This document shows, piece by piece, positions 31,801 through 62,327 of a DNA stretch of 63,602 bases. Numbering within the stretch: position 1 is the first letter of the stretch; each line of letters starts with the position of its first letter. This DNA comes from a virus. Both the position numbers and the translations under genes were made by a program. The DNA lies in IMG/VR virus record IMGVR_UViG_3300034022_000282, positions 1 to 63,602 of that record; one strand, given 5' to 3'. Below the pieces are notes generated by a model that had not been told where the DNA came from, searched no databases, and saw nothing but the letters and a program-made list of their open reading frames with translations.

Positions 31801-34800
31801 GCCGTCCTGTAGATATAACTAGTGAAGAAGATATAATTAATATTAACAAACTTGTTTCTAATACAATGTCTTATGATCAATTATTAGAAATTTTTAAAAC
31901 ATCTGATAATAATAATATTTCTACTTTAAGAGTACCTGTTCAATTTGAAACAACATTTGATGAGGCTGGTCAAGCTATTAAAGTAGCTTATAATGAAAAT
32001 TATATTCCTACTAAATATGATTCTTTATTTTTTGAAGATAAATTAGAATCTGTGCAAGCTACATCTGCATCAGTTACAATAGAAGAACCTTCTACTGGAA
32101 ATACACCTCCTCCAAATAATACTCCTCCAAGACCTAAGACTACTACTAGATTAAGAGCCTTATTAAAATCTGTAGATAAGCAATTAGGTAAAAAGTTTAA
32201 AACTAAAGACATCTTTGCATATTTAAAATCAATTGATAAAACTTTAACTCCGGAACAAGTTCGTTTTGTATCTGCTTCTGAGTTAATGATTTTATCTGGT
32301 GGTAAAGATACTTGGGGATTCTTTAAAGATGGTATTATTTATCTTGAACAAGATGAATTTGGTAAAGCTTATGAAAATGTAGCTAGACATGAATTGTTTC
32401 ATAAAATCTTTGATATGATGTTAACACCATCACAAAGAAGATTAGTATATGCAAAAGCTATTGAAGAATTTGGGTTACCACAAAATACTGATTTAGAAGC
32501 TATAGAAGAACTATTAGCTGAAAAATATCAAGAGTGGAGAAATAATAGTCCTATGTCTTCGTTTTTTACAACTTTATTTAACCGTATAAAAAGATGGTTA
32601 GGTATGAATGTAAACATAACACCTACTATTGATTCATTTTTCCAAATGGTAGAAGCTGGTTATTTCTCAGAGCAAGATAACGTTGGTGAAACTAATAAAG
32701 GGTATAATGACATTTTAAAAGATTTTGATAACATTCTTAACTTTAAAAATGCTAAACTATTTATAATTAGTAAACTAAACGATTTAAAAAATCAAGAATT
32801 AACTGAAGATTATTTAGAAAAATACAATACAACTACTAGCTTAGAAAAATTAGAATTAATATATACTTATGCTTTAGAAGATTATTCTGAGTTAATAAAA
32901 AAATCTGCAACAGAAGAATTAACTGAAGAAGAAAAAGTAGATTTAATGTTTTTAGCTAAAGTTATAGATCGTAAAGTCTATAATAGTTTAATTGAAGATA
33001 TGTTTGAAGGTATTAACTTAGATAAAGTTAATAAAGATGAAATTATATCTACAGATTGGACAGATGATATTAGAGATGCAGAAGAAGTAAATCAAGAAAC
33101 TAAAATTTCTCAATCTGTAAAACAGTTTTTATCTACTATTATTAACCAAACTGAAAATAAACAAGTATCTCCTAAGTTTGCATTTTTAACTGTTCTTGAA
33201 ACGTTTTCAAACATTAACACGTCAACTGAAACAATATTTAAATCTGAGTTAATAAACAGGTTTAAAGAATTTTATGTTAAAAATACAAATGTTGGTGCTA
33301 TTCAAAATAGTATAGACAATTTACTTAAATGGGCTTATTTAGATATTTACAAAGAAATAAATTTAAATCAAAAGTTTGATTTTGTTACACCTAATTTATT
33401 TAAATCTGAAGATAACAATTATTTAAGTAGAAGAGGTAATGAATCAAATAAAGATTTTTTTGCTAGGATTATAGAAAAAAATCCTACAGAATTAAAATTA
33501 CTTAACGTATTGTTTTTAAGAGCTGACGCTAGAAATAACTTAAATGAGTTATATGCTCAAGCTGGGTCATTGTATTCTCAAAATGTAATGTACGGTGAGT
33601 ACAGAGGTTTTGGTGAAGATTACAAACAATCATTTAAAAATGCTATTGTTGAAGCTGAAATTTCTACTGAACGTGATAACTTAGCAGATTCATTTATTCA
33701 AAGAGCACAAGGATTAGATTCAAACTTTAATACTAGATTAAATAATGCTTCTAAGACTAAAGATTTAAATAAACGTAGGCAGGAAGCTATTACTTTATTT
33801 AGAGAGATGTTTTTGTATGAACCTAAGAATGTACAAGACGATAACGTAAATGACTTAATTAAAAAGATGTCAACGTTATATGAGTATTATAAAACGTTTA
33901 AAGGTGAAGATGCTCAAGAAAATTTTCAAGATAAACTAGTAACTGACTACAACGGGTTGTTGTCTTCAATTGCTAAAGACCATTTAGTATCTGCAGAAAC
34001 TAACATTAGAAATCCTAATTACAGAAGAACAGATGGTAAAACAGCTTACAAATTTACTTTATCATCTTTTGCTGTTAACACTATACAATCGTTAATAAAA
34101 AATGTTAACGTACCTGCTTATTTAAAAACTGATTTTTACAAACAAAACATATTTTTAAATGGCCTATCTAAAATTTATAACTATGTAAATTTTGACGGTG
34201 TTGTAGATGAAGATAGAAACACGGATTCTGTAAGATACAAATCTGAAAATGAATCAGATTGGTTTAGACGTAACTTTAATTATTTCTTTTTAGCTTTTGA
34301 TAACGATAACATTAAAACTAAAACTACTTATTTACAACAGTTTGTAACAATATCTAATAAACCAAACATTATAGCTGCTGAAGTAAATATATTAGATTGG
34401 AATTTAATAGAACGGTCTGTTATGTCTATTTTAAACCAACAGTCTAGTAGAAATTTTAGTAATGTTAAAATAGATAATACTTTAAACATATTTGAACCTC
34501 TAGTAGCACGTCAAGAAAATGAAACTAATGCTCAATATGCTAAACGTATTATGGAAACTTTTAAATCTAAAGAGGGTTTAACTGAGTTATTAAATACTGA
34601 TTCAAAAATTGACGTTAAAAAATTAGATGCTTTAGCTGAAAAATTTACTAACAAAAATGTTAATGAACTTACTAAATTATTTTATGCTAATTTCTTTATT
34701 AACTTACATCAATTAAACCAAATTGTTGCAGGTGATGAATCGTTCTACAAAAACTCATTTGATGTTGTAAAACGTATGTCAATAGCTTTTGCTACTGGTT

Positions 34801-37800
34801 ACAAAGGAATGGTTAACGACATATTTGGATTACCTAAATATTACAAAACATTAGTATTAGACGATATTGAAGGAGTATTAGGTAAAGATTACAATAAATA
34901 CAAAGAAATAGTAGGTAAAACATTTGAGTTAACTGATGCTCAAGGATTTATGACTGTTAAAAGAGCTGAACAATTAAGAAGAGCTTATGGTACAGCATTT
35001 AATTTTGGATCAGTTATTAAACCTGTTCATTTTGAAATTGATGAAAATGGTATACCAAGAGCAGTTAAATATTCATGTGTTGAGTTAACTCCTGAATTAT
35101 GCGCTATGTTTCCTATATTAGATAAACTTAGATTAACTTTAGAAAATAATGAAATTGATGAAGTTGCATTTAAATCTGCTATTAAAGTAGGTAGACCTAA
35201 AAATATTCAAAAAACATTAGCTGATGGTAGCATCGATACTGTAAATGCTGATAGTGTTCTTACTTTACAAAATAATAATTACAGAATACAAAGTAATCCA
35301 GAACATGATGTTGATGGTCAAGAAGTAGCATTTCCTACACAGTTAGGTTATTTTTATAACTTTAGTGGTTTAAACAACGATTTAGCAGATAAACTATTTA
35401 AAGCCCAAGAGTTTTTAATTAAAAATGGTTTAAATGACATACTTAAAAGATTAGGATTATCATCTAAATTATTAGAAGGTGAATCTTTAGAACTTACACA
35501 AAATAAGCAAAGAGATAACCTACGTAAAAAACTAATAAATGAGCAAGCTGATGAAAGAGATCAAAGGCAAAATGAATTTTATGCTAACCCTAAATTAGGT
35601 ATTAATACTCCTTTTTTAGTTAAAAAAGCTATTACAACAATGGCTTCTATGTTTAAAAAAGCTACTGTTGCTATTAAGTTACCTGGAGCCGGATTAGTAT
35701 TACAGTCTGCATATGGTACAGCTATATTTAAAGATGCTGAAGGTAATGAAATAGAAAGACCTTTAAAATGGAGAGATGCTGAAGGATACGCTGAAGTAAT
35801 TTTACCAGATTTTTGGCAAGATAAATTTAAAATTGGTGATAGTATTTTATTTGATACTATGGTTGGTTTTAGGATTCCTTCAACTGAATTACATTCTGCA
35901 GTACCTTTAAAAGTAGTAGGTTTTTACCCTAACAACAAAAACGTAGTAATTGCACCACCGGAAATTGTATTTTTCCACGGTTCAGATTATGACGTAGATA
36001 AATTGTATGTAATGAGGAGAGAAATCTATGACAAAGAAGTTTATTCTTCAACTGGTAAACTTATAAATGACCCTAATGTTCCTGTAGGTTACAGTGGTAT
36101 TAATTTTGATGAAGAATTTGCAGAAGTATTAAAATTAGAAATTGCAGATTTTCAAAATAAAATTAACACAGCTAAAAATACAAATGATGCCGATGCAATA
36201 AAAGGTGCAAAAGAAAAACTAAAAGAACTTAAAACACTTCAAGATATTTACTACAAAAACTTTATAGTAGATTTATTTGTAAAAGTAACTACAGCTAAAG
36301 TAAACGAAAACCTAATGATGGCTCCTATTTCAATGGAAAGATTTAAAGGTGTAGGTGTAGATACTGAAGATTCTACTTTTGATTTAGTAGCTAGATTAAA
36401 AGGTTTTAAAGAACCTAAACCTAACTTTAAAGATTTTACAACTTTAGAAAGTTATAAAAATGCTATAGAAGAATGGAAAGATAAAAGAGATGCTGTAATT
36501 TATACTACACGTAGTTTGTACGATTTAAATGATCAAATGTTAATGCATAAGGATAATTTTAGTGGTACCAAACTTACAGGTAGTTTTGCTAACATGGCTA
36601 AAGTTATAGCTTACTTTTTCCAATCTACTACAAATGGTGAATACCCTCAACTTAAAGAAAGCTATCATATTAGTTTAAACGGTGAAACTTATACTGGGTA
36701 TGATTATTATGAAAAAACTAAAGAGGTATTAGTAACATATGACTCTGATGGTAATCCGGTTTATAAAAAACCTTCTATTACTGAAACAATAGATTCATTA
36801 GTAAATGCTGCTATTGATAACGTAAAAGAACAAATACTTCCTGTAATTGGTTTTACTAACAATACTGGTGGAGCTGCAGTATCTATGATTTCAATGGGTA
36901 TACCTTTAAATCAAGTAGTGTTAACAATGTTACAACCTGCAGTTGATGTTATTAATAGATACAATAGTTATTCAATTGGTTATAGTGCTGCTTTAACAGA
37001 ATTAAAAGTAGCTTATGCTAAAAATTTAAAAGCTGATTCTTTTGAAACATTAACTGAAGATCAAAAACTTGCATTTGATGATAAATTACCAGAAGTAAGT
37101 GACGCTAAAATGACTAATGCATACGGTAAAAACATAGCAGATATGACTACCGAGGAGATAAAACTTCAAGTAGCTGTATTAAAAGATGTTTTAAATAAAG
37201 CAAATAATGCATCTGATTATATAACTACGGCTAGTACTGCTTACAGTGTGTTAAAAGAATTTCCTGTAGATTTCCCTGGTATGGAAAATGTATTAGAAGC
37301 TTTTGATAAAATGTGGGTAGAGGGTACTGTTACAGATCCTGAAACAGGTAAAGAAGTAAGTGTAAATGAAGCTTCTGAAACGTTTCCATTTACTAATGTA
37401 ATGCCAACTAAGCTACCACATATTGATGCTGCATTTAAAACGTTAAAAGCTTTAAAAAGTAAAACTGAACATTTGTTTTTTGTTCATTATAAAACTTTAC
37501 AAAACTTTTCAAACTCTGCTTTAGAAAAGTATAACTTAAAACTTAAACGTTCTACTAAAACTAAAGAATTAACTGCTAAATTTAGAGAAAGATTTTTACA
37601 GTATTTTATGTCAGGTCTTACTTTTACTACTCCGGAAGGGTATAATATTAGTTTAGACACATCTAAAGAACCTGTTTATACTGACGCCAGAGGTAAAGAA
37701 TATACTGGTATGGATGCTTGGTTAAGAAGTTTTTCTGATCAAATAAGAGAAATAAAGAAAGCTAATCCAAATAACAAATTTTTACGTAAAATTAGTATAG

Positions 37801-38708
37801 GTAAAAAATACAAATTAAACTTTTCTACAGGTAAAAATTTAACTCAAGAAGATTTTGTGGATTTGCAATTAGAATTTGATAAATTAAAAGTAGATGGCCA
37901 ATTTACTGAGTTTCAATATAATTTAGTAAAATACTCTATCTTACAATCAGGTTTGTCTTTTGGTTCTAACACATTTTCTCTTATATTACCTAGTGCTATT
38001 TATGAGCCATTTATGGAAACATACAATGATGTAATGTCTAAGTATACTGCAGATTCAGAAGCATACAATGTTCTTTTAAATAAAGTACAAGATAATTTTT
38101 TAGTTCAATACGCTATTAACAATGCTAAAGAATCTGTTAGAAACATAGATCCTAAAGATACCGAAGAAGGCAAAGAAAGAAGTATTTTAATATCTAAAGA
38201 CAATATATACATGGGTGAAAATCCACCTATATTTGTAAGAAGTTACAGTACTTTATATACTTTATTAGATTTAGATCCTAGAAAACCTGATAAATTTGTA
38301 TATGGTAGAGTAGGAGATTTTAATCAAATTTCTGGTTATCAATTTAATACAGATATAGTTGATGGTAATTATGATTTAAAATCTGCATTTAGTATTGATA
38401 TACCTACTGTTTCTGTAACAAATAATGTGTTAAAAAATGGTATCTTTGAATCTAGAAAAGAATATAGTGTAGGCCAAAAAATTAGATTAGTAAATTATTC
38501 TGATTACACTAGAATGAATTTAGTTGAATATACTGTAACTGAAAAAACAGAAAAAAACAATGTGTATACTTACAAATTGTCTGATTCTCAAGATGTTAGT
38601 TTAACTTTAACTGATTCTCAAATAATATCTAGTGAAGAATATAAAAAATTAATTGAAGAGGGTTATACTGGAGAAGCAGCATTACAAAAAATAAAAAATA
38701 AATGTTAA
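25842..38708 (+). CDS. Giant virion RNA polymerase with helicase and metalloprotease motifs
   Basis: A 4288-residue protein. Residues 1-480 are Gly/Ala-rich with possible membrane-active helices. Long coiled coils fill about 500-1000. An SF1-like P-loop ATPase follows, with Walker A GFAGTGKT (1189-1196) and Walker B IIIDEVN (1257-1263). A Glu-rich linker (about 1510-1540) comes next, then a zinc-protease-like HELFH (2183-2187). Near residues 3370-3390, IVFFHGSDYDVDKLYV contains DYDVD (3382-3386), the DxDxD metal-binding loop of crAss/YonO-type RNA polymerases. In the crAss-like phage phi14:2 a packaged polymerase of this family transcribes early genes after ejection. No stop or frameshift interrupts the frame. 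Confidence 0.82.
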   Translation: MPNLSELLDEYNKGIQKNKSLISPEEMNVGFGLAKEQDIPFSSKDLGQSIYEEVENRRSRNQGAWETVGIGAARLAGKTLTKTAEGAGFIAGLVGDALGNAVGLDTNTDTYKKEGDTSLGGNLSAWIAGAADNGLATLASDMEQKLEDITPLYNSLEDRAANKMNVFNNLMDGDFWAGDAVDATAFLLSAYLTGGAVAEAKIGQGLVKGLAKKGLMSGNLNKVANATNHFTATALQTASESMFESKELRDNLREQIAEERYGANFDFLSPEQQKEINVEVAPAAAKSFGLNMLLLAPSNALEMKNLMKSSSRITGKTKGLGSKGLQTIEEVTGDINLPFDMSLPTSKIPYLGAGVKAVNKFGSTRAGSILSAQANSILSEGLYEENAQLAVSEMLKVNRDADLFSLSTYGDIGSKMSENFETEEGKKSMLLGSLVGGISGTMGGVKDYNANKKKQDSAIEYTGKELANMFSVNNVYETEEYTQDVDGKPVVKTKYKLDENGQPIVDQNKLQAVLKQKQEFEFLDDVATLAEEKGDDVLYGLAKNNAINRWIKSHFATGSEDLLEGKIEYLQNLSDEEYLKQGLNPAEKGQYIANIRNKISEFTKLSKNIENNLVAMDNSKVGSQNFKARKNELYNIGTVLNDVKDEKNRLLLEQAEINSDEQSQTLNAKRSAYIDLKVKELTEAENKYKEEFNKLGNLNTGQKYFDNDYKKSITQKVNSFNFQSGNLDQFNAFENSKLYKSGLELKAKNIENDFFEQGTQERIENGEDATAIVDDLVADNVPVTQETKNLLESKLNSEKELIEEISSYVEQMQNGLEPDPLSPAAQELNNSFNDNFDAFNEYSNKIQSALNNLTNLPLATKMDTSKKAIKAKILESFTNMVNSIVFVASNNEDYENVSEIENAIKSLENTIKILEEKKDSEYDDVIANYKNILKELKDLEAVVKERAADKQKQQEKIATQSLELQEDSVASVPELITLVSDITGLDVSDLDNQTKDMPLWEKIGYLTNIISQIKTQITPEQLQKLKNLERSLTTQVESLVVANSKSYVLVDIIKKYYGKNPKLIFNDIVQLTIKASEDKTSAYAKYLKDFNFYNLFEKIISNEVEFRLPENVTHEIYNLHKQVLGVNNLISIIESAYNPVTEVVTENAIGKEEKIVPSNQQLAAIRDLVKFLFTKKPNVPFGNFAYLKGFAGTGKTNIVLKWFTKVAALKQEEIFATGHNENSAKAINDAIGNPNAKTLEELKFKLANNELGKTKLIIIDEVNALNKNEIIEINRLLVSYNQTNNTEIKIIGLGDPNQVTATGENPFLSPAYTAGLENATIITPLTIRYRSNVQAVVDAQDLFMDQKKDLTKQEIFLTSNSEKTLGAEGSLQSDSIKQALAQRDLNDGKTRAIIVHPSEVEMWKAENLGVEVVSYIDVQGRTIDEVFVSIPSTKFGDSFAFNQAMYTATSRATSFIHINGMASKNVTDENVNKITDKNVKAIQESKIKFEEDRVAEMKQIDDSIEIKPLVKPQEEVKEEEEEEVDLELEPELIPITPEEEVEIQPTSAEVLNLKYPNNKSLKGNTQNGKDVPAVKPGEEVIYVPFENKQGNKSIGVFVNRNGDYLEIGVLSQQELDNPPANKIDLFNKFKEALKGPITKFTINNETGYLNVSNTSSLITLAKGKVENVSKLKMIYKAISEPFNWQNILTKFRKGFFTTAEGDAAQLEKSQIRVFTTNEIAQLKSKGVTFPLTAGRPYIMIVNPIQATGQTAIPQFIELERKSLNKDEHSFITAPIYDFIAKYEQFKDAFSELDSNELADLITATDEFLPTLIDKLNGKYKKKFNLANPILELRKEINNLLYTELTEQDLVIKKGMKVKNLAIPFTKKDKNNNTVEVNGVVVKVKEDEVDVKVENEVVTVKLSDLQPVVKRKPGPAQKAFNIIAQGNNTAAGYTIRLNYNANGTLLSKAKSLLPKTENLTVDQIIEKFKAMSSFKQQNVLNKFQEIYGRPVDITSEEDIININKLVSNTMSYDQLLEIFKTSDNNNISTLRVPVQFETTFDEAGQAIKVAYNENYIPTKYDSLFFEDKLESVQATSASVTIEEPSTGNTPPPNNTPPRPKTTTRLRALLKSVDKQLGKKFKTKDIFAYLKSIDKTLTPEQVRFVSASELMILSGGKDTWGFFKDGIIYLEQDEFGKAYENVARHELFHKIFDMMLTPSQRRLVYAKAIEEFGLPQNTDLEAIEELLAEKYQEWRNNSPMSSFFTTLFNRIKRWLGMNVNITPTIDSFFQMVEAGYFSEQDNVGETNKGYNDILKDFDNILNFKNAKLFIISKLNDLKNQELTEDYLEKYNTTTSLEKLELIYTYALEDYSELIKKSATEELTEEEKVDLMFLAKVIDRKVYNSLIEDMFEGINLDKVNKDEIISTDWTDDIRDAEEVNQETKISQSVKQFLSTIINQTENKQVSPKFAFLTVLETFSNINTSTETIFKSELINRFKEFYVKNTNVGAIQNSIDNLLKWAYLDIYKEINLNQKFDFVTPNLFKSEDNNYLSRRGNESNKDFFARIIEKNPTELKLLNVLFLRADARNNLNELYAQAGSLYSQNVMYGEYRGFGEDYKQSFKNAIVEAEISTERDNLADSFIQRAQGLDSNFNTRLNNASKTKDLNKRRQEAITLFREMFLYEPKNVQDDNVNDLIKKMSTLYEYYKTFKGEDAQENFQDKLVTDYNGLLSSIAKDHLVSAETNIRNPNYRRTDGKTAYKFTLSSFAVNTIQSLIKNVNVPAYLKTDFYKQNIFLNGLSKIYNYVNFDGVVDEDRNTDSVRYKSENESDWFRRNFNYFFLAFDNDNIKTKTTYLQQFVTISNKPNIIAAEVNILDWNLIERSVMSILNQQSSRNFSNVKIDNTLNIFEPLVARQENETNAQYAKRIMETFKSKEGLTELLNTDSKIDVKKLDALAEKFTNKNVNELTKLFYANFFINLHQLNQIVAGDESFYKNSFDVVKRMSIAFATGYKGMVNDIFGLPKYYKTLVLDDIEGVLGKDYNKYKEIVGKTFELTDAQGFMTVKRAEQLRRAYGTAFNFGSVIKPVHFEIDENGIPRAVKYSCVELTPELCAMFPILDKLRLTLENNEIDEVAFKSAIKVGRPKNIQKTLADGSIDTVNADSVLTLQNNNYRIQSNPEHDVDGQEVAFPTQLGYFYNFSGLNNDLADKLFKAQEFLIKNGLNDILKRLGLSSKLLEGESLELTQNKQRDNLRKKLINEQADERDQRQNEFYANPKLGINTPFLVKKAITTMASMFKKATVAIKLPGAGLVLQSAYGTAIFKDAEGNEIERPLKWRDAEGYAEVILPDFWQDKFKIGDSILFDTMVGFRIPSTELHSAVPLKVVGFYPNNKNVVIAPPEIVFFHGSDYDVDKLYVMRREIYDKEVYSSTGKLINDPNVPVGYSGINFDEEFAEVLKLEIADFQNKINTAKNTNDADAIKGAKEKLKELKTLQDIYYKNFIVDLFVKVTTAKVNENLMMAPISMERFKGVGVDTEDSTFDLVARLKGFKEPKPNFKDFTTLESYKNAIEEWKDKRDAVIYTTRSLYDLNDQMLMHKDNFSGTKLTGSFANMAKVIAYFFQSTTNGEYPQLKESYHISLNGETYTGYDYYEKTKEVLVTYDSDGNPVYKKPSITETIDSLVNAAIDNVKEQILPVIGFTNNTGGAAVSMISMGIPLNQVVLTMLQPAVDVINRYNSYSIGYSAALTELKVAYAKNLKADSFETLTEDQKLAFDDKLPEVSDAKMTNAYGKNIADMTTEEIKLQVAVLKDVLNKANNASDYITTASTAYSVLKEFPVDFPGMENVLEAFDKMWVEGTVTDPETGKEVSVNEASETFPFTNVMPTKLPHIDAAFKTLKALKSKTEHLFFVHYKTLQNFSNSALEKYNLKLKRSTKTKELTAKFRERFLQYFMSGLTFTTPEGYNISLDTSKEPVYTDARGKEYTGMDAWLRSFSDQIREIKKANPNNKFLRKISIGKKYKLNFSTGKNLTQEDFVDLQLEFDKLKVDGQFTEFQYNLVKYSILQSGLSFGSNTFSLILPSAIYEPFMETYNDVMSKYTADSEAYNVLLNKVQDNFLVQYAINNAKESVRNIDPKDTEEGKERSILISKDNIYMGENPPIFVRSYSTLYTLLDLDPRKPDKFVYGRVGDFNQISGYQFNTDIVDGNYDLKSAFSIDIPTVSVTNNVLKNGIFESRKEYSVGQKIRLVNYSDYTRMNLVEYTVTEKTEKNNVYTYKLSDSQDVSLTLTDSQIISSEEYKKLIEEGYTGEAALQKIKNKC

Positions 38709-48078: not shown

Positions 48079-48420
48079 TTAAAAAGGTAATTTACTGTTA
48101 CGTTTATCTTCAATAGATGCTTCTAACAATAATAAATAGTTTACAGCATCACCTATCTTTTCTTCTGTTAAAGATTTAGAAGGTACAAACTCAGAGTTTT
48201 TATTCATCTCAGTTACTATATCTATTACAGATACTAAATGTTTTAAAAAGAAACCAAATAAAGCTTTTTCTCTACACTCACCAGTAATTTGGGCTGCCAT
48301 ATTAAAATTGTGCATCCTATCGTCATCACCTTTAGCATATTCTTTTGCTTTTTCAATAAGTATTCTTTTACATTCAGCTAATCTGTGTTCTACTACTTTG
48401 TCAAATTGTGCTGTTTTCAT
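48079..48420 (-). CDS. Nmad1/MazG-like helical protein
   Basis: A 113-residue all-helical protein. The pattern E-K-A-K-E-Y-A-x(4)-D-R-M-H-N-F at residues 23-39, a KHLVSVIDIV helix and EEKIGDAVNYLLLLEA near residues 87-102 resemble all-alpha NTP pyrophosphatase-like or Nmad1-type proteins. Acidic residues on two helices could coordinate magnesium. It might modify or clean the nucleotide pool. The assignment is by motif shape and is tentative. It is coupled 1 nt downstream of the RusA-like gene. Confidence 0.5.
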   Translation of the reverse strand: MKTAQFDKVVEHRLAECKRILIEKAKEYAKGDDDRMHNFNMAAQITGECREKALFGFFLKHLVSVIDIVTEMNKNSEFVPSKSLTEEKIGDAVNYLLLLEASIEDKRNSKLPF

Positions 48421-49061
48421 TATAGTTTTAGTTTAAATTGTTGAACTTCTGCTCTAAGATCTTGATAGAAAGTAAATACTATCTTTCTTTCTTCAAAAGT
48501 CTCTACAGGAGTATAAATTGGAAATGATCCAGTAACATATTTTACTTCGTCATCTTTAATAATACCCATATTTGTAAGTACATCCTCAAAGGTCTTAATA
48601 TAAACGGCTGCAAAATTAGTATTATCTAATGTCTTATGGCTGTATGGGCAAAACCAATTAACCACCATAACAATAGGATAATCCTGACTTACAAAGGGTT
48701 GTATTCCTTCTAATGCTTCTTTGTAAAATTCATGCAAAGCATTTACTATTTTAACCCTGGTAAATTGTCCACCATTTTGACTATAAAATATTTGGCCATT
48801 GATAGGAACATATTTAGATGTACCTGCAGCTAAAGGATTAGCTATAATTCTTTGGTTTTCTGCTGTTATAACATAGCCCTCTAAATCATAACCTATTGCT
48901 TTATACTTTTTAGGGATGTCTAAAATTTCTTTTTTAACTTTACCTCTTCCTGTTTTAGAATGAAAATACTTAGTTAATCTAGACTTTGATGTTTGTACTT
49001 GGTAAATATATTCTGGTATTGTAATAACTTTTATTGCTTTAAATAATTTTTTGTCTAACAT
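48420..49061 (-). CDS. RusA-like Holliday junction resolvase
   Basis: A 213-residue protein whose C-terminal half carries the RusA signature: L-D-N (Asp146, Asn147), Lys156, Asp160 and an IIKDDEVKYV strand (Asp170, Asp171), matching the DN-x-K-x3-D and DD metal-binding pattern. A beta-rich N-terminal extension of about 100 residues has no clear match. RusA enzymes cut Holliday junctions as dimers and resolve replication or recombination intermediates before packaging. It overlaps the unknown gene upstream by 7 bp. Confidence 0.75.
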   Translation of the reverse strand: MLDKKLFKAIKVITIPEYIYQVQTSKSRLTKYFHSKTGRGKVKKEILDIPKKYKAIGYDLEGYVITAENQRIIANPLAAGTSKYVPINGQIFYSQNGGQFTRVKIVNALHEFYKEALEGIQPFVSQDYPIVMVVNWFCPYSHKTLDNTNFAAVYIKTFEDVLTNMGIIKDDEVKYVTGSFPIYTPVETFEERKIVFTFYQDLRAEVQQFKLKL

Positions 49062-49909
49062 TCTTCTCCTTCTTCTATTGTGTTATAATCTATACCATAT
49101 GTAAACTCATTTACTTTAATTTTAAATTTAGTTACAAGTTCTTTAAATTTTTCTTTAAACTTCTCTTCAAACTTATTGTAAACAAATTGATGATGTTCTT
49201 CTTTGCTACAATACGATCTGTAACCGTTTGAATCTATTAAATTAACAGATCTAAAGCTAAATCCTAATGACTCAGTAAACCCTTTAAAACTAATAGAATT
49301 TCTATATGGGTTATGCCAAATTGTTTCTGCATGATTTGTAAATATATCCATTAGGTATACTTTATCATCTTCCCAGTTAGCATTAGACATAAACTCCATA
49401 GCCATTGTTACATTACTAACTTCATTAGATTTAAGTAATTGCATTATGTTACTATACAAATCAAACGTAACTTCATATTTATACAAAGAACTATAAATAT
49501 CTTTTACTTGTAAATATTTATAATCTTTTAAAAAATCTACAATACGGTTGTCTATAAAGTCTTCAGCTCTTATTCTATCGTTAAATCTAAATGATTCTTC
49601 ACGTAAATTCCAACCTAAATCAATCATGTCTTCTTTAAAACTTAAAAAATTATCTACTATAATAAAAGTAGCATTATCTTTAGATCTAGTAATTTTAAAC
49701 CCAGCTTCTCTTAATTTAGTTTGAGATATTGATTTAGTCTCAACATAAACAGTTTCTGTTTTTGTTATAGGTAAATCATATTTAGGTATATTAATTAGAA
49801 ATTGTTTTAAATCCGGATATGAATAATAGGTATAGTTTCTATGAGGACGATGATCATTGTCTTTAGGTTTTACTAATCCTAAATCTAATCTTTCTTGATA
49901 AAAATCCAT
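49055..49909 (-). CDS. Unknown protein, MoxR/VWA cassette, paralog A
   Basis: A 284-residue protein of unknown family. Its middle (about residues 60-90) has TKLREAGFKITRSKDNATF followed by IIVDNF, and residues about 155-195 have NIMQLLKSNEVSNVTMAMEF followed by MSNANW. Both elements have counterparts in the next gene upstream at similar positions, so the two are probably distant paralogs. The C-terminus is a Lys/Glu/Phe helix. It lies immediately downstream of its paralog, the MoxR-like ATPase and the VWA protein, which suggests a substrate or adaptor role for that machine. No catalytic motif was seen. Confidence 0.55.
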   Translation of the reverse strand: MDFYQERLDLGLVKPKDNDHRPHRNYTYYSYPDLKQFLINIPKYDLPITKTETVYVETKSISQTKLREAGFKITRSKDNATFIIVDNFLSFKEDMIDLGWNLREESFRFNDRIRAEDFIDNRIVDFLKDYKYLQVKDIYSSLYKYEVTFDLYSNIMQLLKSNEVSNVTMAMEFMSNANWEDDKVYLMDIFTNHAETIWHNPYRNSISFKGFTESLGFSFRSVNLIDSNGYRSYCSKEEHHQFVYNKFEEKFKEKFKELVTKFKIKVNEFTYGIDYNTIEEGEEC

Positions 49910-49910
49910 G

Positions 49911-50738
49911 TTATTTTAATTTAATGTGAAAATCAGTTAATACAAACTTTTCTGTGCCAAAATAAGAACTAAAATAATTAACGTTAATATGCTTAGAAAA
50001 ATCAGCTCTCATTTTCTGTACAATACAATCTAATACATCTTGAACTGTAACTATATTTATGATAGCATCTAAATTAGCATTTAATAAATTATGTAAATTA
50101 ATATTTTTAGAAGAATAATAGTTTTTTATAATGTTTTTAGTATCATAAAAAAGTAATTTATTACCTTCTTTATGATAAATATATAAAATCCAATCTAAAT
50201 TTTTATCTAAATCTGAGTTTATAAGCATAGAAGCTGCAATTTGTAAATTATCAGGAGCACCTGAATCCATTAAACTTTTAATAGTAGTATAGTTTTCTTT
50301 ATCTATTATAAAACCATTATTTAAACTATCGTTAAGTGAATCTTGATTTACATATTCTACAACTTGACCTCTACTAAAAAAGTCTAATATTTGCTCTAAA
50401 GTTTGATAATCTTCTGGATATAAATTATTAGTAGAATACATTACATCTCCTGTGTCTACTTCAGTCATACAGTTATTAACTGAATCATAGAATATAGGAT
50501 AAAGATTAATATCAAACTTTTTAATAATACAATAATTAGCCTTTTCTTTTTTAATTACCCTGGAGATGTTAGTTCCAGAGTAATCACTTATTATTTTAGG
50601 TATTGTAGTATTCTTTAAAAAGAATATATTCTTATCATTTGGAATTGTTTTGTTAAACGTAGACCAAATTGTAGATAAATAATCTTTAAATGCTTGATCA
50701 ACGTATTTAGCACCGTTAGTTGTTATAATTAGTCTCAT
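49911..50738 (-). CDS. Unknown protein, MoxR/VWA cassette, paralog B
   Basis: A 275-residue protein sharing an architecture with the following gene: an ISRVIKKEKANYCIIKKF segment (about 58-75), then a long middle and YTTIKSLMDSGAPDNLQIAA (about 162-181) followed by SMLINSDLD. The C-terminal 80 residues are helical. Similarity is at the level of spacing and hydrophobic pattern, suggesting old duplication. Its start overlaps the MoxR-like ATPase stop by one base, so it is made together with the ATPase. Function unknown; adaptor or remodelling substrate is inferred. Confidence 0.55.
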   Translation of the reverse strand: MRLIITTNGAKYVDQAFKDYLSTIWSTFNKTIPNDKNIFFLKNTTIPKIISDYSGTNISRVIKKEKANYCIIKKFDINLYPIFYDSVNNCMTEVDTGDVMYSTNNLYPEDYQTLEQILDFFSRGQVVEYVNQDSLNDSLNNGFIIDKENYTTIKSLMDSGAPDNLQIAASMLINSDLDKNLDWILYIYHKEGNKLLFYDTKNIIKNYYSSKNINLHNLLNANLDAIINIVTVQDVLDCIVQKMRADFSKHINVNYFSSYFGTEKFVLTDFHIKLK

Positions 50739-51955
50739 TATGCTGTCATGTATTTAATAAATCTCGGATCCGAAGCTAATAACCCTGTAAAGTTATTACC
50801 ACAAGAAATTGTTTGTTTAACCATTAAGAACTTTTGATCTACTGAAAAAGATGGGTGCAACACTAATTCTAAATACTGCTTAATGTTATCCTTAGATAAA
50901 CCTTTAGCATTAAACCTAATATAGTTATACATCCTTGTACATAATATAGCAGCAGTAGCACCTTTCCAGTTAACTGAATCTTGTTCAGAATCACCACATG
51001 CACCGGTTAGTTGAGCTTTAGCTGTTGGTAAATCATATTCTTTTATCAGTTTTTCTATTGAAGGAAGCTTATCTAACTTTTTGTTTACAAAATTGATTAG
51101 CTGACTTGTAATGTTACTACCTACGGTAATATCACCAAACATAGAAATCTTATCAAGATGCTTCTCAAACTCATCAATAGTAGATGTTAAGCTAAAAAAC
51201 TTATCCATCATACGAGGAGATATGTTATTACTAGCACTAATACCTTCAGATTTTTTATTCTCTAATAATTCTGGTGCCCATAATACAAAGTTTATTAACC
51301 TCTCATCTAAACCAACTTTTTCTGCTCTTTCTGCCCAATCTTTAGCATCCCATACCATATTAATTTTAGCCATACGATCTGTTTGAGCATTATCTTGACT
51401 AGATACATTGTACTCACCGTTATCAGGATTTTCACTTAGAAAGATTTGAACTTTCTTTTCTTTTAAATCCCAACCAATCATGGTACCCTCGTTAACCAAT
51501 TCCATTACAGCTTGACTAAACAAACTATTTGAACGGCTATAATCATCTAGTAATAAAATACCATTTTCTTGTAAATTAGTTACCCAATCTGGAGGACATG
51601 GTACAGTTCTAGTTTTGTTAGTATATCTAAAACCATTCTCTGCTGCTTTAGGTAATAAGTTTTCAGTAATCCATCTTACTTCACTTTTAGCATTTATTAC
51701 TTGGTATTCTTTACTGTAATAACCTATTAATTCTGATGGTTCTGTTAACTGAGCTAAATTTAATTTGTATAAATCTCTACCTAGATCAGTAGCTAAATCT
51801 CTACATATAGTAGTTTTACCTATACCTCTCTCACCGATTAAGCTTACACTAATTGGAATACCTCCATTTTTCATAATCTCATCATTAGCTTTAACCACAT
51901 CTACTAATACTTTGTAGGTTTCGTTTGGTTTATATGTTGTTGTTTTCTTTGCCAT
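50738..51955 (-). CDS. MoxR-like AAA ATPase
   Basis: A 405-residue AAA protein. Walker A is GERGIGKTT (41-49, Lys47), and the following TEPSELIGYY matches the MoxR/dynein-like pattern after the P-loop. Walker B is ILLLDDYSR (133-141). SENPDNGEYNV probably contains sensor 1, and an arginine-bearing segment with DERLINFVLWAP follows. The C-terminal 180 residues are a helical lid. MoxR ATPases usually work with a VWA partner to remodel or assemble protein complexes, and the gene directly upstream encodes such a partner. Its target in the phage cycle is unknown. Confidence 0.85.
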   Translation of the reverse strand: MAKKTTTYKPNETYKVLVDVVKANDEIMKNGGIPISVSLIGERGIGKTTICRDLATDLGRDLYKLNLAQLTEPSELIGYYSKEYQVINAKSEVRWITENLLPKAAENGFRYTNKTRTVPCPPDWVTNLQENGILLLDDYSRSNSLFSQAVMELVNEGTMIGWDLKEKKVQIFLSENPDNGEYNVSSQDNAQTDRMAKINMVWDAKDWAERAEKVGLDERLINFVLWAPELLENKKSEGISASNNISPRMMDKFFSLTSTIDEFEKHLDKISMFGDITVGSNITSQLINFVNKKLDKLPSIEKLIKEYDLPTAKAQLTGACGDSEQDSVNWKGATAAILCTRMYNYIRFNAKGLSKDNIKQYLELVLHPSFSVDQKFLMVKQTISCGNNFTGLLASDPRFIKYMTA

Positions 51956-51968
51956 TGTTTAATATTTT

Positions 51969-53147
51969 TTAATTGTTTGTTGGAATTTTAATCCATTGTG
52001 CATGATCTTGTATACTCTGTTCAGTGCCGTTAGAACTAATCACCCATAGTAATCTTTTACTACATTTAGGTGGAACTTCTGCATGACCATCTGTAAATAT
52101 TATACATGATTGATACTTGGATTCATTAAAATAATTTACTGCTGCCGTGAATGATGTTCCCCCACAATAGGTTCTTGGAAACTCATTATTACCTTTGTAT
52201 TTAACAATTCCAGATACTCCGGTGTCAAAAGCTCTAATCTCAATATCAGTTTTCTTTTGTAAATGATATATCTCGTTTAAGAAATCATATAACTCATTTT
52301 CTGATACGGATCCTGACTCATCTACTAGTATTAACATCTTGTTTAGAGGCTTTAATACTATTTTTGGTTGGCCTGGAAATCTTTGATTCTCTTTAATCTT
52401 AGTAGACTTAATAAAAAACTTAGTTGAATTACCTACAAAGTTTCTTATATACTTACTATAGTTAAATGCTGGTTTAGGTTTAACAAATCCTGATATTAAT
52501 TGATCAATTTCTACTGGTATATGACCTTGAGACTTTTTAATCTCTTCAGCTATACTTTCTATAGTATGCTCAATTTGTACTTTTAAAGCTTCTTTCTCAC
52601 TATCTGTTAAGTTGTCTACCTTGTTACCATCACCATCAACTATTACCCAAACATGTTGAGATTTTTCATCAATACCCATCTTTTCTTGTTCTTCTTCAGA
52701 TAGTTTACTTAGCTCATTATAATAATGATGTCTACCTGCATGTGCTTTCCAATTTAAGTTAGGGTGTTTTTCTTGAAAGTCTTCTAGGAATATTCCCCAT
52801 GATGGTAAATTAGCTTTACCTATTCTTTGGTTAATATCTAAGTCACATGCTACATTATCCATTTTACTATTAGGATATGCATCCATAGTAATTAAATGGA
52901 ATTGACATAAATGTTGTGCTTCATGTAATAACACACCATACCTTATTTCTTCTGCATGTTTAAACCACTCATCTGGATTAATTAGTAAAGCAAAATCCAT
53001 AGTAGATTTGTTTACACTTACTGCAGCTAGTGGAATCTCTTTGTTTTCTTTCTTTTCTATTGTAGATAAAAACAAACCATAGAATATATCATTGATTAAT
53101 ATCTTCTTGGTTAACTTGTTTATATCTAGTATTAAGTTTTGTTGCAT
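51969..53147 (-). CDS. Metallopeptidase-like / VWA domain protein (DUF2201-like)
   Basis: A 392-residue two-domain protein. The N-terminal part has a zinc-protease helix GVLLHEAQHLCQFH (His75, Glu76, His79) and a downstream NVACDLDINQRIG element typical of the putative metallopeptidase domain that precedes VWA-like domains. The C-terminal VWA-like domain (about 268-392) has the MIDAS motif DESGS (276-280), Thr331 in GGTSFT and Asp353 in FTDGH. It probably binds a divalent metal ligand and hands clients to the MoxR-like ATPase encoded 13 nt downstream. Proteolytic activity is not established. Confidence 0.84.
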   Translation of the reverse strand: MQQNLILDINKLTKKILINDIFYGLFLSTIEKKENKEIPLAAVSVNKSTMDFALLINPDEWFKHAEEIRYGVLLHEAQHLCQFHLITMDAYPNSKMDNVACDLDINQRIGKANLPSWGIFLEDFQEKHPNLNWKAHAGRHHYYNELSKLSEEEQEKMGIDEKSQHVWVIVDGDGNKVDNLTDSEKEALKVQIEHTIESIAEEIKKSQGHIPVEIDQLISGFVKPKPAFNYSKYIRNFVGNSTKFFIKSTKIKENQRFPGQPKIVLKPLNKMLILVDESGSVSENELYDFLNEIYHLQKKTDIEIRAFDTGVSGIVKYKGNNEFPRTYCGGTSFTAAVNYFNESKYQSCIIFTDGHAEVPPKCSKRLLWVISSNGTEQSIQDHAQWIKIPTNN

Positions 53148-53159
53148 AGTGTTTAAATA

Positions 53160-53185
53160 AAAAGAGCAGCTATAAAAGCTGCTCT
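53160..53185 (-). terminator. Hairpin with T tract on minus strand
   Basis: A 9-bp stem (53,163-53,171 with 53,177-53,185) closes ATAAA, and the minus strand continues into TTTTTATT. The right arm lies in the last codons of the primase gene, so it can partly end the primase transcript before the MoxR/VWA cassette. Confidence 0.75.
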
Positions 53186-54144
53186 ATTAATTGTTTTGTT
53201 TCTTGAAATCCATATAAGTTCCGATAGTCACTTATGTCTTTGGCACCTAAATATCCTTTCTTTCTATTCCAGAGTTTATCTGTAAAAAAGAATGGTTTTA
53301 TGTTATGCAGCTTCCTCATTTTCCAAGCTAAATGTATTCCGGTATTATCGTAATCCATAAGAGTATATATATTCTTAAACCTAAGTTTTAAATCAATAAT
53401 AACTTCTTCCGAAAGTAATATACTCTCTGCTTGAGGTGCTACAGCACATATACCTTGTTCATATAATGTACCTACATCTTTAAAAGACTTAGTAATAACT
53501 AATAAATCACCTGATTCTGGTAACATGTCGTAACCTTGAACATCTAGTTTATTAGTATTACTTAAAAATCTCCATTCTCTATTCTTATAAAAGTACAGTT
53601 TCCACCTACCTTTGAAGTAATAACCAATGCAAGGATTATAATCACTATACGTATACAACATCACATCATTTATCCAATAATGTTTTATTGAAAACCATTT
53701 TGCTTTTTTACAAAATTCTCCTGTAATCCCATAACCTTTTAAATATTCTATATCTACTCTACTAAATGGTTGAATAGTTACTTTTATATCTTTAGGTTTA
53801 TGTTCTTCTTTAGGTCTAATAACAACATAGTTACTAATTGTATGATTATTAAAAAACAAATCATATACTGTATTTAATGCTTTGTAATAATTGCAATTTT
53901 CATTGTTCATTACTATATTAATACATGTATATGTTTGTTTCCAAGCTGGATCATGGAAATATAATATACCTCCATTCCAGTAAAACCAACAATCAGCTTT
54001 GGTATCGTTCCTTAATGGATTACAAAACTTCTTGTTGAGTTGACAAAACCCAAAATACTTGAGATAAACATCTTCTTGGTTTATCTTATCAAATAACCAG
54101 TCAAAGGTCATCTCAAGTGGTTTAATATTTGGGCTTCCGTACAT
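53170..54144 (-). CDS. DnaG-type primase (Toprim)
   Basis: A 324-residue primase-like protein. The N-terminal 100 residues contain cysteines and aromatic strands (FCNPLRNDTKADCWFYW, then ILYFHDP) that resemble the zinc/CHC2-like template-binding region. The Toprim domain spans about 205-310: LLVITKSFKDVGTL (214-227) for the first acidic motif, GICAVAP, then TLMDYDNTG with DxD at 264-266. It would synthesise RNA primers with the DnaB-like helicase encoded nearby. The protein is shorter than bacterial DnaG and lacks the helicase-binding C-terminal domain. Confidence 0.85.
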   Translation of the reverse strand: MYGSPNIKPLEMTFDWLFDKINQEDVYLKYFGFCQLNKKFCNPLRNDTKADCWFYWNGGILYFHDPAWKQTYTCINIVMNNENCNYYKALNTVYDLFFNNHTISNYVVIRPKEEHKPKDIKVTIQPFSRVDIEYLKGYGITGEFCKKAKWFSIKHYWINDVMLYTYSDYNPCIGYYFKGRWKLYFYKNREWRFLSNTNKLDVQGYDMLPESGDLLVITKSFKDVGTLYEQGICAVAPQAESILLSEEVIIDLKLRFKNIYTLMDYDNTGIHLAWKMRKLHNIKPFFFTDKLWNRKKGYLGAKDISDYRNLYGFQETKQLIEQLL

Positions 54145-55699: not shown

Positions 55700-56785
55700 T
55701 TAATTTATATATTTATTATAATCTTGTTCCGTCATGTCAACTGCCGGTGGTAATTCCTCAAAGTAATTAGTTGCACCGTTAAAGTAGGTACCGATATAGA
55801 AATTAATTAAACCATTATTCCTATCCTTTAAGAACTTAATACTACGATATTTATTCTTTAACTTACTTATATCATAGCCTCTGTGTCTTTTAATACCATA
55901 TCTTTCTGGTGCAAATAATCCTAAGACTAAGTCAGCATCACGTTGGGTTTCTTTGTTATTAGCTAAACCATCTAGTGATGGCTCTAGCTTTTCTTCTATA
56001 GAAATACCCTGGTAATACTCTGCTTTTTCTTTAGATGCTTCTTGCTGTTGAATATTAATAGTTACACAACCATACTTTTTAGTAAAACCTTTTAAACAAA
56101 AGTGCTTACTAAACCTACCCATTGCTTCGTGAAGTGATTCACCTTTTTCTGGAGTAAGTAAACTAATATGGTCTGTAATTACAAATACCCACAGGTTTGG
56201 ATTAGTGTATACATATCTTTTGGATACCTTTTCTGCATGAGCTACATCAAACTCTTCATGTCCTACAGCAGGATTATTAAAGTAATCAGCTACATATTTG
56301 TAAATCCCATAAGGATTAAATATATAGTCTACTACTTCAATATAATTCTGCATGTCTTCAATTAACTCTTGGCAATCTTCTACTTTCTGCAGAACATCAT
56401 CTGTTAAATAGAATTCACCTAATGATTTTAATTGATTTGGAGATAAAGATATTTGATACTTTTCAAACAGTAAAGTAGATATGATACCTAACCAGAAACT
56501 TTCTGAGGTTTCTTCTAGAGCAAAATAGAATATCTTACTTTCTATTTCTGGTTTATTTTTAACAAACTCATAGACAGATGTTACTGATAGAAACTTTGCT
56601 AATTTTGTTTTACCGATACCTGATGAAGCAGTTATAATGCTGTAACTAGATTTAGTCCATCCTGGAAATAACTTAGATAATCTATTAAATGGAAACAATA
56701 CTGAGGTAATTTTACCCTCATCTTTTAGTTTCTTATTTAGTTTTAGTTTATCAACCAGTTCTTTAAACATCGTTTCCTGTGTCAT
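55700..56785 (-). CDS. Replicative DnaB-like helicase
   Basis: A 361-residue RecA-fold helicase of the DnaB/SF4 type lacking an N-terminal DnaB domain. Walker A is ASSGIGKTK (53-61, Lys59), the catalytic Glu is likely in YFALEETSE (87-95), and Walker B is FVITDHISLL (201-210, Asp205). INIQQQEAS is the DnaB motif-3-like strand, followed by a QRDADLVLGL element. It unwinds the fork and associates with the Toprim primase encoded downstream. It overlaps the upstream 200-residue gene by 23 bp. Confidence 0.9.
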   Translation of the reverse strand: MTQETMFKELVDKLKLNKKLKDEGKITSVLFPFNRLSKLFPGWTKSSYSIITASSGIGKTKLAKFLSVTSVYEFVKNKPEIESKIFYFALEETSESFWLGIISTLLFEKYQISLSPNQLKSLGEFYLTDDVLQKVEDCQELIEDMQNYIEVVDYIFNPYGIYKYVADYFNNPAVGHEEFDVAHAEKVSKRYVYTNPNLWVFVITDHISLLTPEKGESLHEAMGRFSKHFCLKGFTKKYGCVTINIQQQEASKEKAEYYQGISIEEKLEPSLDGLANNKETQRDADLVLGLFAPERYGIKRHRGYDISKLKNKYRSIKFLKDRNNGLINFYIGTYFNGATNYFEELPPAVDMTEQDYNKYIN

Positions 56786-57365
56786 AGCTTTCCTCCATCA
56801 TTTTCTTAATACTATCTATAGTACCTTTGGTTAGAAACTTACTAATATGGGTATTACACAAACCTTTCTCCTTGGCATATTCTAATATACCTTTCATTTC
56901 TTCGTGTTTATGTATGCTGTTTTTGATTAATTTGCAATAATCTACTGCAATTTTATCTAAATCCCCATTCTTTGTAAAATAAATACTACCGTTAACACTG
57001 ATAGTATCTGGGTAAATCTCTAGTATCTCATCTAGTGCAAAGTTACCATTTATAAACATTAAATCCGAGAACTTTTGTGTAAGTATCAGCTGATCAATGG
57101 AATAATTTACTACTCCATTTAGTTGCTTAGATTTGATACCAAACACATAATCCTTGGAAATTAAATCATCTATTTCATTCTCTGACCAACCGGTACCTTC
57201 ATTACTCCACTTGTATATATTACCTATACTTTTGAACTTTAGTTTTTTATTAATTTTAAACATTTGTTCAGTGTATAATAAATACAACAGTAAAAATTGA
57301 TTTGTTGACAATCTGTTTTTAGTTAAAAACTCTACATAAGCATCTGTGTCATCTAATATTCCCAT
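56763..57365 (-). CDS. Putative replication accessory protein
   Basis: A 200-residue protein. The N-terminal third (FLTKNRLSTNQFLLLYLLYT, residues 13-32, then a GTGWSENEIDDLISKDYVFG segment) resembles winged-helix modules of phage replication or helicase-loading proteins. The rest is helical. It overlaps and precedes the DnaB-like helicase, the usual place for a loader, but no ATPase motif is visible. The call is based on position and pattern. Confidence 0.52.
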   Translation of the reverse strand: MGILDDTDAYVEFLTKNRLSTNQFLLLYLLYTEQMFKINKKLKFKSIGNIYKWSNEGTGWSENEIDDLISKDYVFGIKSKQLNGVVNYSIDQLILTQKFSDLMFINGNFALDEILEIYPDTISVNGSIYFTKNGDLDKIAVDYCKLIKNSIHKHEEMKGILEYAKEKGLCNTHISKFLTKGTIDSIKKMMEESYDTGNDV

Positions 57366-62086: not shown

Positions 62087-62145
62087 ATGTGTACCACCAC
62101 AATTAACCATTATATGAACCAACTTATAATGCAGTATAAGCTTTG

Positions 62146-62218
62146 TTGTCTGATTAGGTCTCGAACCTAAACTCTTCTCAGTCAAAGTGAGACGTGTTGC
62201 CAATTACACCATCAGACA
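62146..62218 (-). tRNA. tRNA-Gln (anticodon TTG)
   Basis: Read on the minus strand, a full cloverleaf is present: a 7-bp perfect acceptor stem (62,212-62,218 with 62,147-62,153), a D-arm with GG in the loop, an anticodon arm TCTCA/TGAGA with loop CTTTGAC (anticodon TTG, reads CAA), a T-arm TTAGG/CCTAA with TTCGAGA loop, and discriminator A. CCA is not encoded. Anticodon TTG, not CTA or TCA, argues against suppressor function. It could support translation of Gln(CAA)-rich, A+T-biased late genes. Confidence 0.92.
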
Positions 62219-62248
62219 ATTTGCTGTCTTTCCAAGCTGTCAGATTAC

Positions 62249-62315
62249 TTCTATTAGTAGTCAGAGCAGGAATTAAACCTGCATTATTACAATATCACAC
62301 AAGTAAGGTGCTATC
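62249..62315 (-). ncRNA. tRNA-like element lacking a normal anticodon arm
   Basis: On the minus strand, a 7-bp acceptor-like stem (AGTCAGA with TCTGACT), a short D-like arm (GCAC/GTGT) and a good T-like arm (GCAGG/CCTGC, loop TTTAATT) are present. Only about 14 nt lie where a 17-nt anticodon arm and variable loop should be, and the D-loop lacks GG. It may be a degenerate tRNA or a tRNA-shaped RNA. Boundaries are approximate. Confidence 0.42.
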
Positions 62316-62327
62316 TGACTAATTTAT

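Follow-up and report, generated by a model that had tools for sequence, protein, structure and literature searches.

A MoxR and zincin-VWA gene block linked to a family of candidate adaptor or client proteins in uncultured crAss-like phages

To our knowledge, the clients of the widespread MoxR-VWA machines have been established in only a few cases. A viral DNA molecule of 63,602 nucleotides (IMG/VR record IMGVR_UViG_3300034022_000282, analysed over its full length and referred to here as the window) carries genes for a MoxR-like AAA+ ATPase and a VWA protein next to two genes for proteins of about 280 residues, here named X1 and X2. This arrangement raises the question of whether the X proteins belong to the MoxR-VWA machine and, if they do, on what the machine acts. 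A four-gene system had been proposed from the nucleotide sequence and a list of its open reading frames (ORFs), and we refer to that proposal as the original prediction. The interpretation that we favor, with moderate confidence, is that the block encodes a single protein-remodelling machine of an uncultured crAss-like phage group, acting early in infection, with the X proteins as its dedicated adaptors or clients.

The four proteins

The four ORFs were found at positions 49055-53147 on the minus strand, where the original prediction had placed them, in the order VWA, MoxR, X1, X2:

51969..53147, minus strand: VWA, a zincin (HExxH) fused to a VWA domain with a metal ion-dependent adhesion site (MIDAS), DUF2201_N plus DUF2201, 392 amino acids (Pfam; PHROG 1314; invariant active-site and MIDAS residues)
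50738..51955, minus strand: MoxR-like AAA+ ATPase, 405 amino acids, Walker B LDD with Asp in place of the catalytic Glu (Pfam; PHROG 1297)
49911..50738, minus strand: X1, X-family protein, 275 amino acids, predicted alpha/beta N-terminal and all-helical C-terminal domains (AlphaFold2 mean predicted local distance difference test score, pLDDT, 84.7; independent X profile, E value 1.1e-18)
49055..49909, minus strand: X2, second X-family paralog, 284 amino acids (AlphaFold2 mean pLDDT 84.9; independent X profile, E value 1.9e-17)

The genes are tightly packed, with a gap of 13 nucleotides between VWA and MoxR, an overlap of 1 nucleotide between MoxR and X1 and a gap of 1 nucleotide between X1 and X2; X2 overlaps the following RusA-like gene by 7 nucleotides.

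X1 and X2 showed no similarity in pairwise BLAST. Their profiles, compared with each other, matched with a probability of 93% (E value 3.3e-7) and a score of 55.3, versus a best score of 28.5 in 200 column-permuted controls and 16.1 for the reversed profile. The independent X profile cited above was built exclusively from other phage loci, and its next-best match among the window ORFs had an E value of 0.0058. In both models the elements follow in one order, from a small alpha/beta domain through a helix-strand-helix and a helical array to a terminal long helix. The relation suspected between the two proteins was therefore borne out, and by sequence profile and predicted fold order they are true paralogs. 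As a family signature we identified a segment like S-x-D-x-DN-x-x-LA-x-E-x-x-x-N-x-N. In many large X proteins the C-terminus is an acidic tail tipped by an aromatic residue (Trp is among the last three residues in 29 of 64), a possible docking peptide that is absent from the window X1 and X2. Identity to the window protein is 42-64% for X1 and 34-76% for X2, versus 67-93% for MoxR and 68-91% for VWA. X evolves much faster than MoxR and VWA, as expected of a recognition part.

Searches with X1 and X2 gave nothing above cut-off or convincing in Pfam, NCBIfam or PDB, and no convincing match in PADLOC; bpMoxR Pfam matches were below the cut-off. For the N-terminus of X, topology and weak Foldseek matches (target template modelling score at most 0.42) suggested a BRCT fold, which profile comparison did not support, as hhalign against 27 bacterial LigA-type BRCT domains gave probabilities of at most about 0.5%. 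The PHROG 14608 and clathrin matches of X1 were short and weak and were rejected, and its NCBIfam EntV match (E value 3.6e-4, 20.6 bits versus a cut-off of 130) was taken as chance. Four predicted viral structures, one from a crAss-like virus and two from a single podovirus, resemble X2 with a probability of 1.00; all are uncharacterised. A 200-amino acid ORF upstream of DnaB (56763-57365) had a weak, short match to the X1 profile (E value 9e-5) and none to broader X profiles, and this match is probably due to chance.

The other two proteins belong to recognisable families. The VWA protein matched PF09967 (E value 1.4e-8) and PF13203 (E value 3e-7), both above cut-off; DUF2201_N is a metallopeptidase domain and DUF2201 a VWA-like domain. 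The motifs HEAQH (residues 75-79) and DESGS (276-280) are exactly as originally read, and residues H75, E76, H79, H84, D276, S278, S280, T331 and D353 do not vary among relatives as distant as phages AR9 and MTATph1. The HExxH and MIDAS (DxSxS..T..D) motifs identify the protein, as far as sequence can, as a DUF2201 zincin-VWA. Proteins of this type are named HNH endonuclease in PHROG 1314 and in several RefSeq phage records (e.g., NC_031039.1 and NC_043027.1). This identity was rejected because above cut-off Pfam shows zincin and VWA domains only, and the name looks like a propagated misannotation.

The ATPase matched AAA_5 above cut-off (E value 1.6e-6), and the GERGIGKTT and ILLLDDY motifs had been correctly recognised. 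The Walker A G/K, sensor-1 N176, R194 and R248 are invariant in its relatives, and the presence of Walker A, Walker B, the sensor 1 Asn and the arginine finger/sensor 2 arginines points to a MoxR AAA+ ATPase. Its nearest PDB profile matches are midasin AAA modules. A search of a genome collection for a bacterial origin of the MoxR-VWA pair gave just two distant matches. Judged by its motifs and profiles, the block encodes an intact MoxR-type ATPase, a zincin-VWA protein with intact metal-site and MIDAS residues, and at least one linked X protein.

Linkage of the block across environmental phages

Conservation of the block was assessed in IMG/VR contigs. The 16 loci of the window group (the window included) that have a complete MoxR and sufficient flank all keep the VWA-MoxR-X1-X2 order with both X genes (16/16). 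A wider scan with a broader MoxR alignment identified at least 576 confirmed relatives, and 77 loci among the best of these met the flank criterion. An X-family gene adjoins the MoxR-VWA pair in 75 of the 77, a count that is not one of independent events since several contigs are near-duplicates; in the other two, the contigs stop 32 and 515 bases past MoxR. The relatedness of X1 and X2 together with their co-occurrence with the ATPase/VWA pair across phages supports the four-gene system, which is larger than originally proposed. In the commonest wider layout, a small X of about 135 amino acids, consisting of the helical domain only, precedes VWA and MoxR, and a large X of 350-460 amino acids follows. 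X can lie on both sides of the pair or between its members, as in L073 and L238 with the order MoxR-X-VWA, and VWA and MoxR are fused in one ORF in L203. X varies in copy number and in size (103-461 amino acids). The surroundings are DnaB-SSB-primase-[block]-RusA in one set of loci, [block]-DnaB-Sak4-primase in another and DnaB-[block]-primase in L069; that is, the block order is kept while DnaB, primase and RusA move around it.

The linkage goes together with an altered ATPase active site. The MoxR Walker B reads hhhhDD instead of hhhhDE. The catalytic position is Asp in 89 X-linked MoxRs, some of them on contigs that stop short of the X position; phage MoxRs without X have Glu in every case (53/53). 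The Asp-type MoxRs form one clade (support 0.948), and X profiles found no match in the X-less loci (L074-L132). These comparisons link the X family to the Asp-type MoxR. From general knowledge of AAA+ ATPases, the Glu-to-Asp change suggests slow, switch-like ATP hydrolysis.

A tblastn search with the X proteins against 50,697 sequenced phage records gave no credible match; an X2 match in the human-gut record MT835837, which has no module, was attributed to chance. Nine sequenced crAss-like or related genomes (crAss001, phi14:2, Fpv1, csAssE-Sib, cr126_1, cr127_1, Lbo-JY46, bajarodcaudo virus 1 and Dulem virus 41) had no MoxR, VWA or X match, nor did they match a broad X profile, although this profile recovers X from the divergent contig L072. 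MoxR and VWA are absent from the main text of a key survey of gut crAss-like phages (PMC7886860), and in the library searched no paper combined "crAss-like phages" with "VWA domain". The absence of X is one from the libraries searched and is not proof of novelty.

Several loci carry additional elements. Short X-like fragments between VWA and MoxR (L063, 3698-4018; L061, 1746-2153; L064, 6062-6334) suggest further copies or decay products. An insert of about 1.1-1.2 kb splits the VWA gene just before the HExxH codons in L008 (6638-8970), L016 (5744-7994) and related contigs; its ORF looks like a LAGLIDADG homing endonuclease, and no Rfam intron match was found. GIY-YIG-like endonuclease ORFs interrupt or flank MoxR/VWA in L072 (6294-8684), L070 (97-744 and 1889-2707) and L069 (14305-14844), and an HNH endonuclease adjoins the gp24-like gene of phage Pollock, so homing elements appear to target the block repeatedly. 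In L072 (IMGVR_UViG_3300028048_000097), several genes, X and that of the muzzle protein included, have open frames only when TGA codes for an amino acid, which is consistent with opal recoding in this crAss-like phage.

The features next to the block are:

53170..54144, minus strand: DNA primase, directly upstream (phrog_12622, E value 2e-31)
48420..49061, minus strand: RusA-like Holliday-junction resolvase, not always present and linked only in the window-type arrangement (phrog_4632, E value 7e-7)
53163..53185, minus strand: 9-bp hairpin then a T-run, between the primase stop and the VWA start (consensus match only)

The location between primase and resolvase is thus as first described. The hairpin is a possible terminator or attenuator; four terminator-like sites were found in the scanned region versus 2.2 expected by chance. 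The crAss-like label also held, since the 1606-amino acid ORF of the window matches the Crassvirus muzzle protein (PF25731, E value 4.8e-23). By this test the window phage is Crassvirales-like, and its DnaB has its nearest relatives in crAss-like phages. In the sample, each of the 12 X-linked contigs of 65 kb or more encodes a muzzle protein. Elsewhere in the window, residues 1184-1458 of a 4288-amino acid ORF (25842-38708) form an SF1-helicase-like domain, and the only DYDVD motif of this ORF, at 3382, is a possible DxDxD site of an RNA polymerase. We considered connecting MoxR-VWA with a virion RNA polymerase and dropped the idea because the sampled sequenced crAss-like phages have no MoxR-VWA. 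At 62145-62320, a tRNA-Gln(ttg) gene adjoins a second tRNA match that is weaker, and an Rfam search returned tRNAs only.

A putative remodelling machine and its alternatives

We infer that the MoxR ATPase would form a ring on which the VWA protein docks through its MIDAS, presenting a bound protein. The X proteins, tied strictly to one MoxR clade with an active-site change, are the obvious candidates for client or adaptor. Their docking element may be the helical C-terminal domain, which is common to all X forms including the stand-alone ones of about 135 residues, and target recognition would fall to the N-terminal domain. The target would then be pulled on or released by the ring and may be clipped by the zincin. 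Given that the genes lie within the replication block and that an annotated early promoter precedes the AR9 pair, the best candidate for this target would be a nucleoprotein or replication complex of the early phase, or a host factor attached to it, rather than the virion. Replication genes are found near 41 of the 46 loci of at least 9 kb, the promoters annotated in the stretch of the AR9 pair are early only, and 41 of 43 AR9 virion proteins are late (PMC5312081), which together argue against a role in virion assembly.

Some points weigh against a dedicated early machine. AR9 has no X beside its pair, and its timing bears on the X-linked block only indirectly. The N-terminal domain of X has no confident PDB fold match. 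Gene linkage also fits co-regulation without a complex. A more specific proposal is made tentatively: X may be a new adaptor family that makes the MoxR-VWA pair a dedicated, slow-cycling remodeller of early nucleoprotein (replication) complexes or of host factors on them, a hallmark of a large uncultured environmental branch of crAss-like phages.

It is unlikely that the block is instead a virion-assembly chaperone, in which MoxR-VWA remodels and the zincin trims a structural complex (e.g., the giant tail or ejected proteins) with X as scaffold-like clients. The analogy of an archaeal virus tail system has led to such a proposal for the jumbo-phage pair (PMC7824862), and the structural half of the window has giant ORFs of 4288, 1606, 1480 and 1465 amino acids. 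However, the four genes are part of the replication block and run opposite to the structural genes, the AR9 pair has its early promoter, and the nine genomes without MoxR, VWA and X indicate that such virions can be built without it. Equally improbable is a machine for counter-defence or host takeover that unfolds or cleaves a host protein, with a fast-evolving X recognising variable host targets. The rate at which X evolves relative to the motor, its variable copy number and size and the proposal that bacterial MoxR-vWA ternary systems are conflict systems (PMC7159879) would fit this role, but the near-universal fixed linkage in the phage group is unlike that of patchy accessory anti-defence genes, and PADLOC found nothing convincing. 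Least probable is that the X proteins have a function of their own and just happen to be in one operon with an ordinary MoxR-VWA pair: neighbours in a compact block may simply be co-regulated, but the linkage survives several gene orders and rearranged surroundings and coincides with the MoxR catalytic-site change.

With four small proteins, the question of whether X is the client or adaptor can be tested directly. Environmental crAss-like contigs commonly carry the block, and the X partners have no counterpart in the sequenced phages searched, so that the block points to biology not seen in cultured crAss-like phages.

Comparison with known systems

The RavA-ViaA and CbbQ-CbbO chaperones consist of an AAA+ ring and a VWA co-factor acting on a client complex. 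The block shares this general architecture but has no recognisable LdcI, rubisco or respiratory client and has an extra zincin domain.

MoxR and zincin-VWA pairs are already known in phages, both jumbo and N4-like; what appears to be new is the X family, together with its tight linkage and the Walker B change. A MoxR plus metallopeptidase-vWA pair was described for jumbo phages of group 2.2 (Iyer et al. 2021, PMC7824862), and phage records annotate such pairs as AR9 g028/g029 and N4 gp24/gp25-like. In AR9 and the jumbo phages the two genes are also adjacent, and the VWA proteins are about 26-31% identical to that of the window with all catalytic and MIDAS residues kept; however, their MoxR keeps the usual Glu in Walker B and shares about 21-23% identity with the window MoxR. 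In the N4-like Schitoviridae, such as phage Pollock, the ATPase likewise adjoins a zincin-VWA protein, but there is no X-family neighbour and the sequences are much diverged. No X-like genes were found near the pair in AR9, MTATph1, Pollock, G19 or PALS_2.

Bacterial MoxR-vWA ternary systems, proposed to be conflict systems, combine MoxR and vWA with a third conserved partner, as the block does (Kaur et al. 2020, PMC7159879). The window block differs in being phage-borne, in the fusion of a zincin to the VWA domain and in an X partner with no confident Pfam match. Membership in the VMAP, iSTAND or beta-propeller classes was rejected, as X1 and X2 had no confident match in Pfam, NCBIfam or PADLOC. 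By analogy and gene content, the block may work like a MoxR-vWA ternary system that stands outside these described classes.

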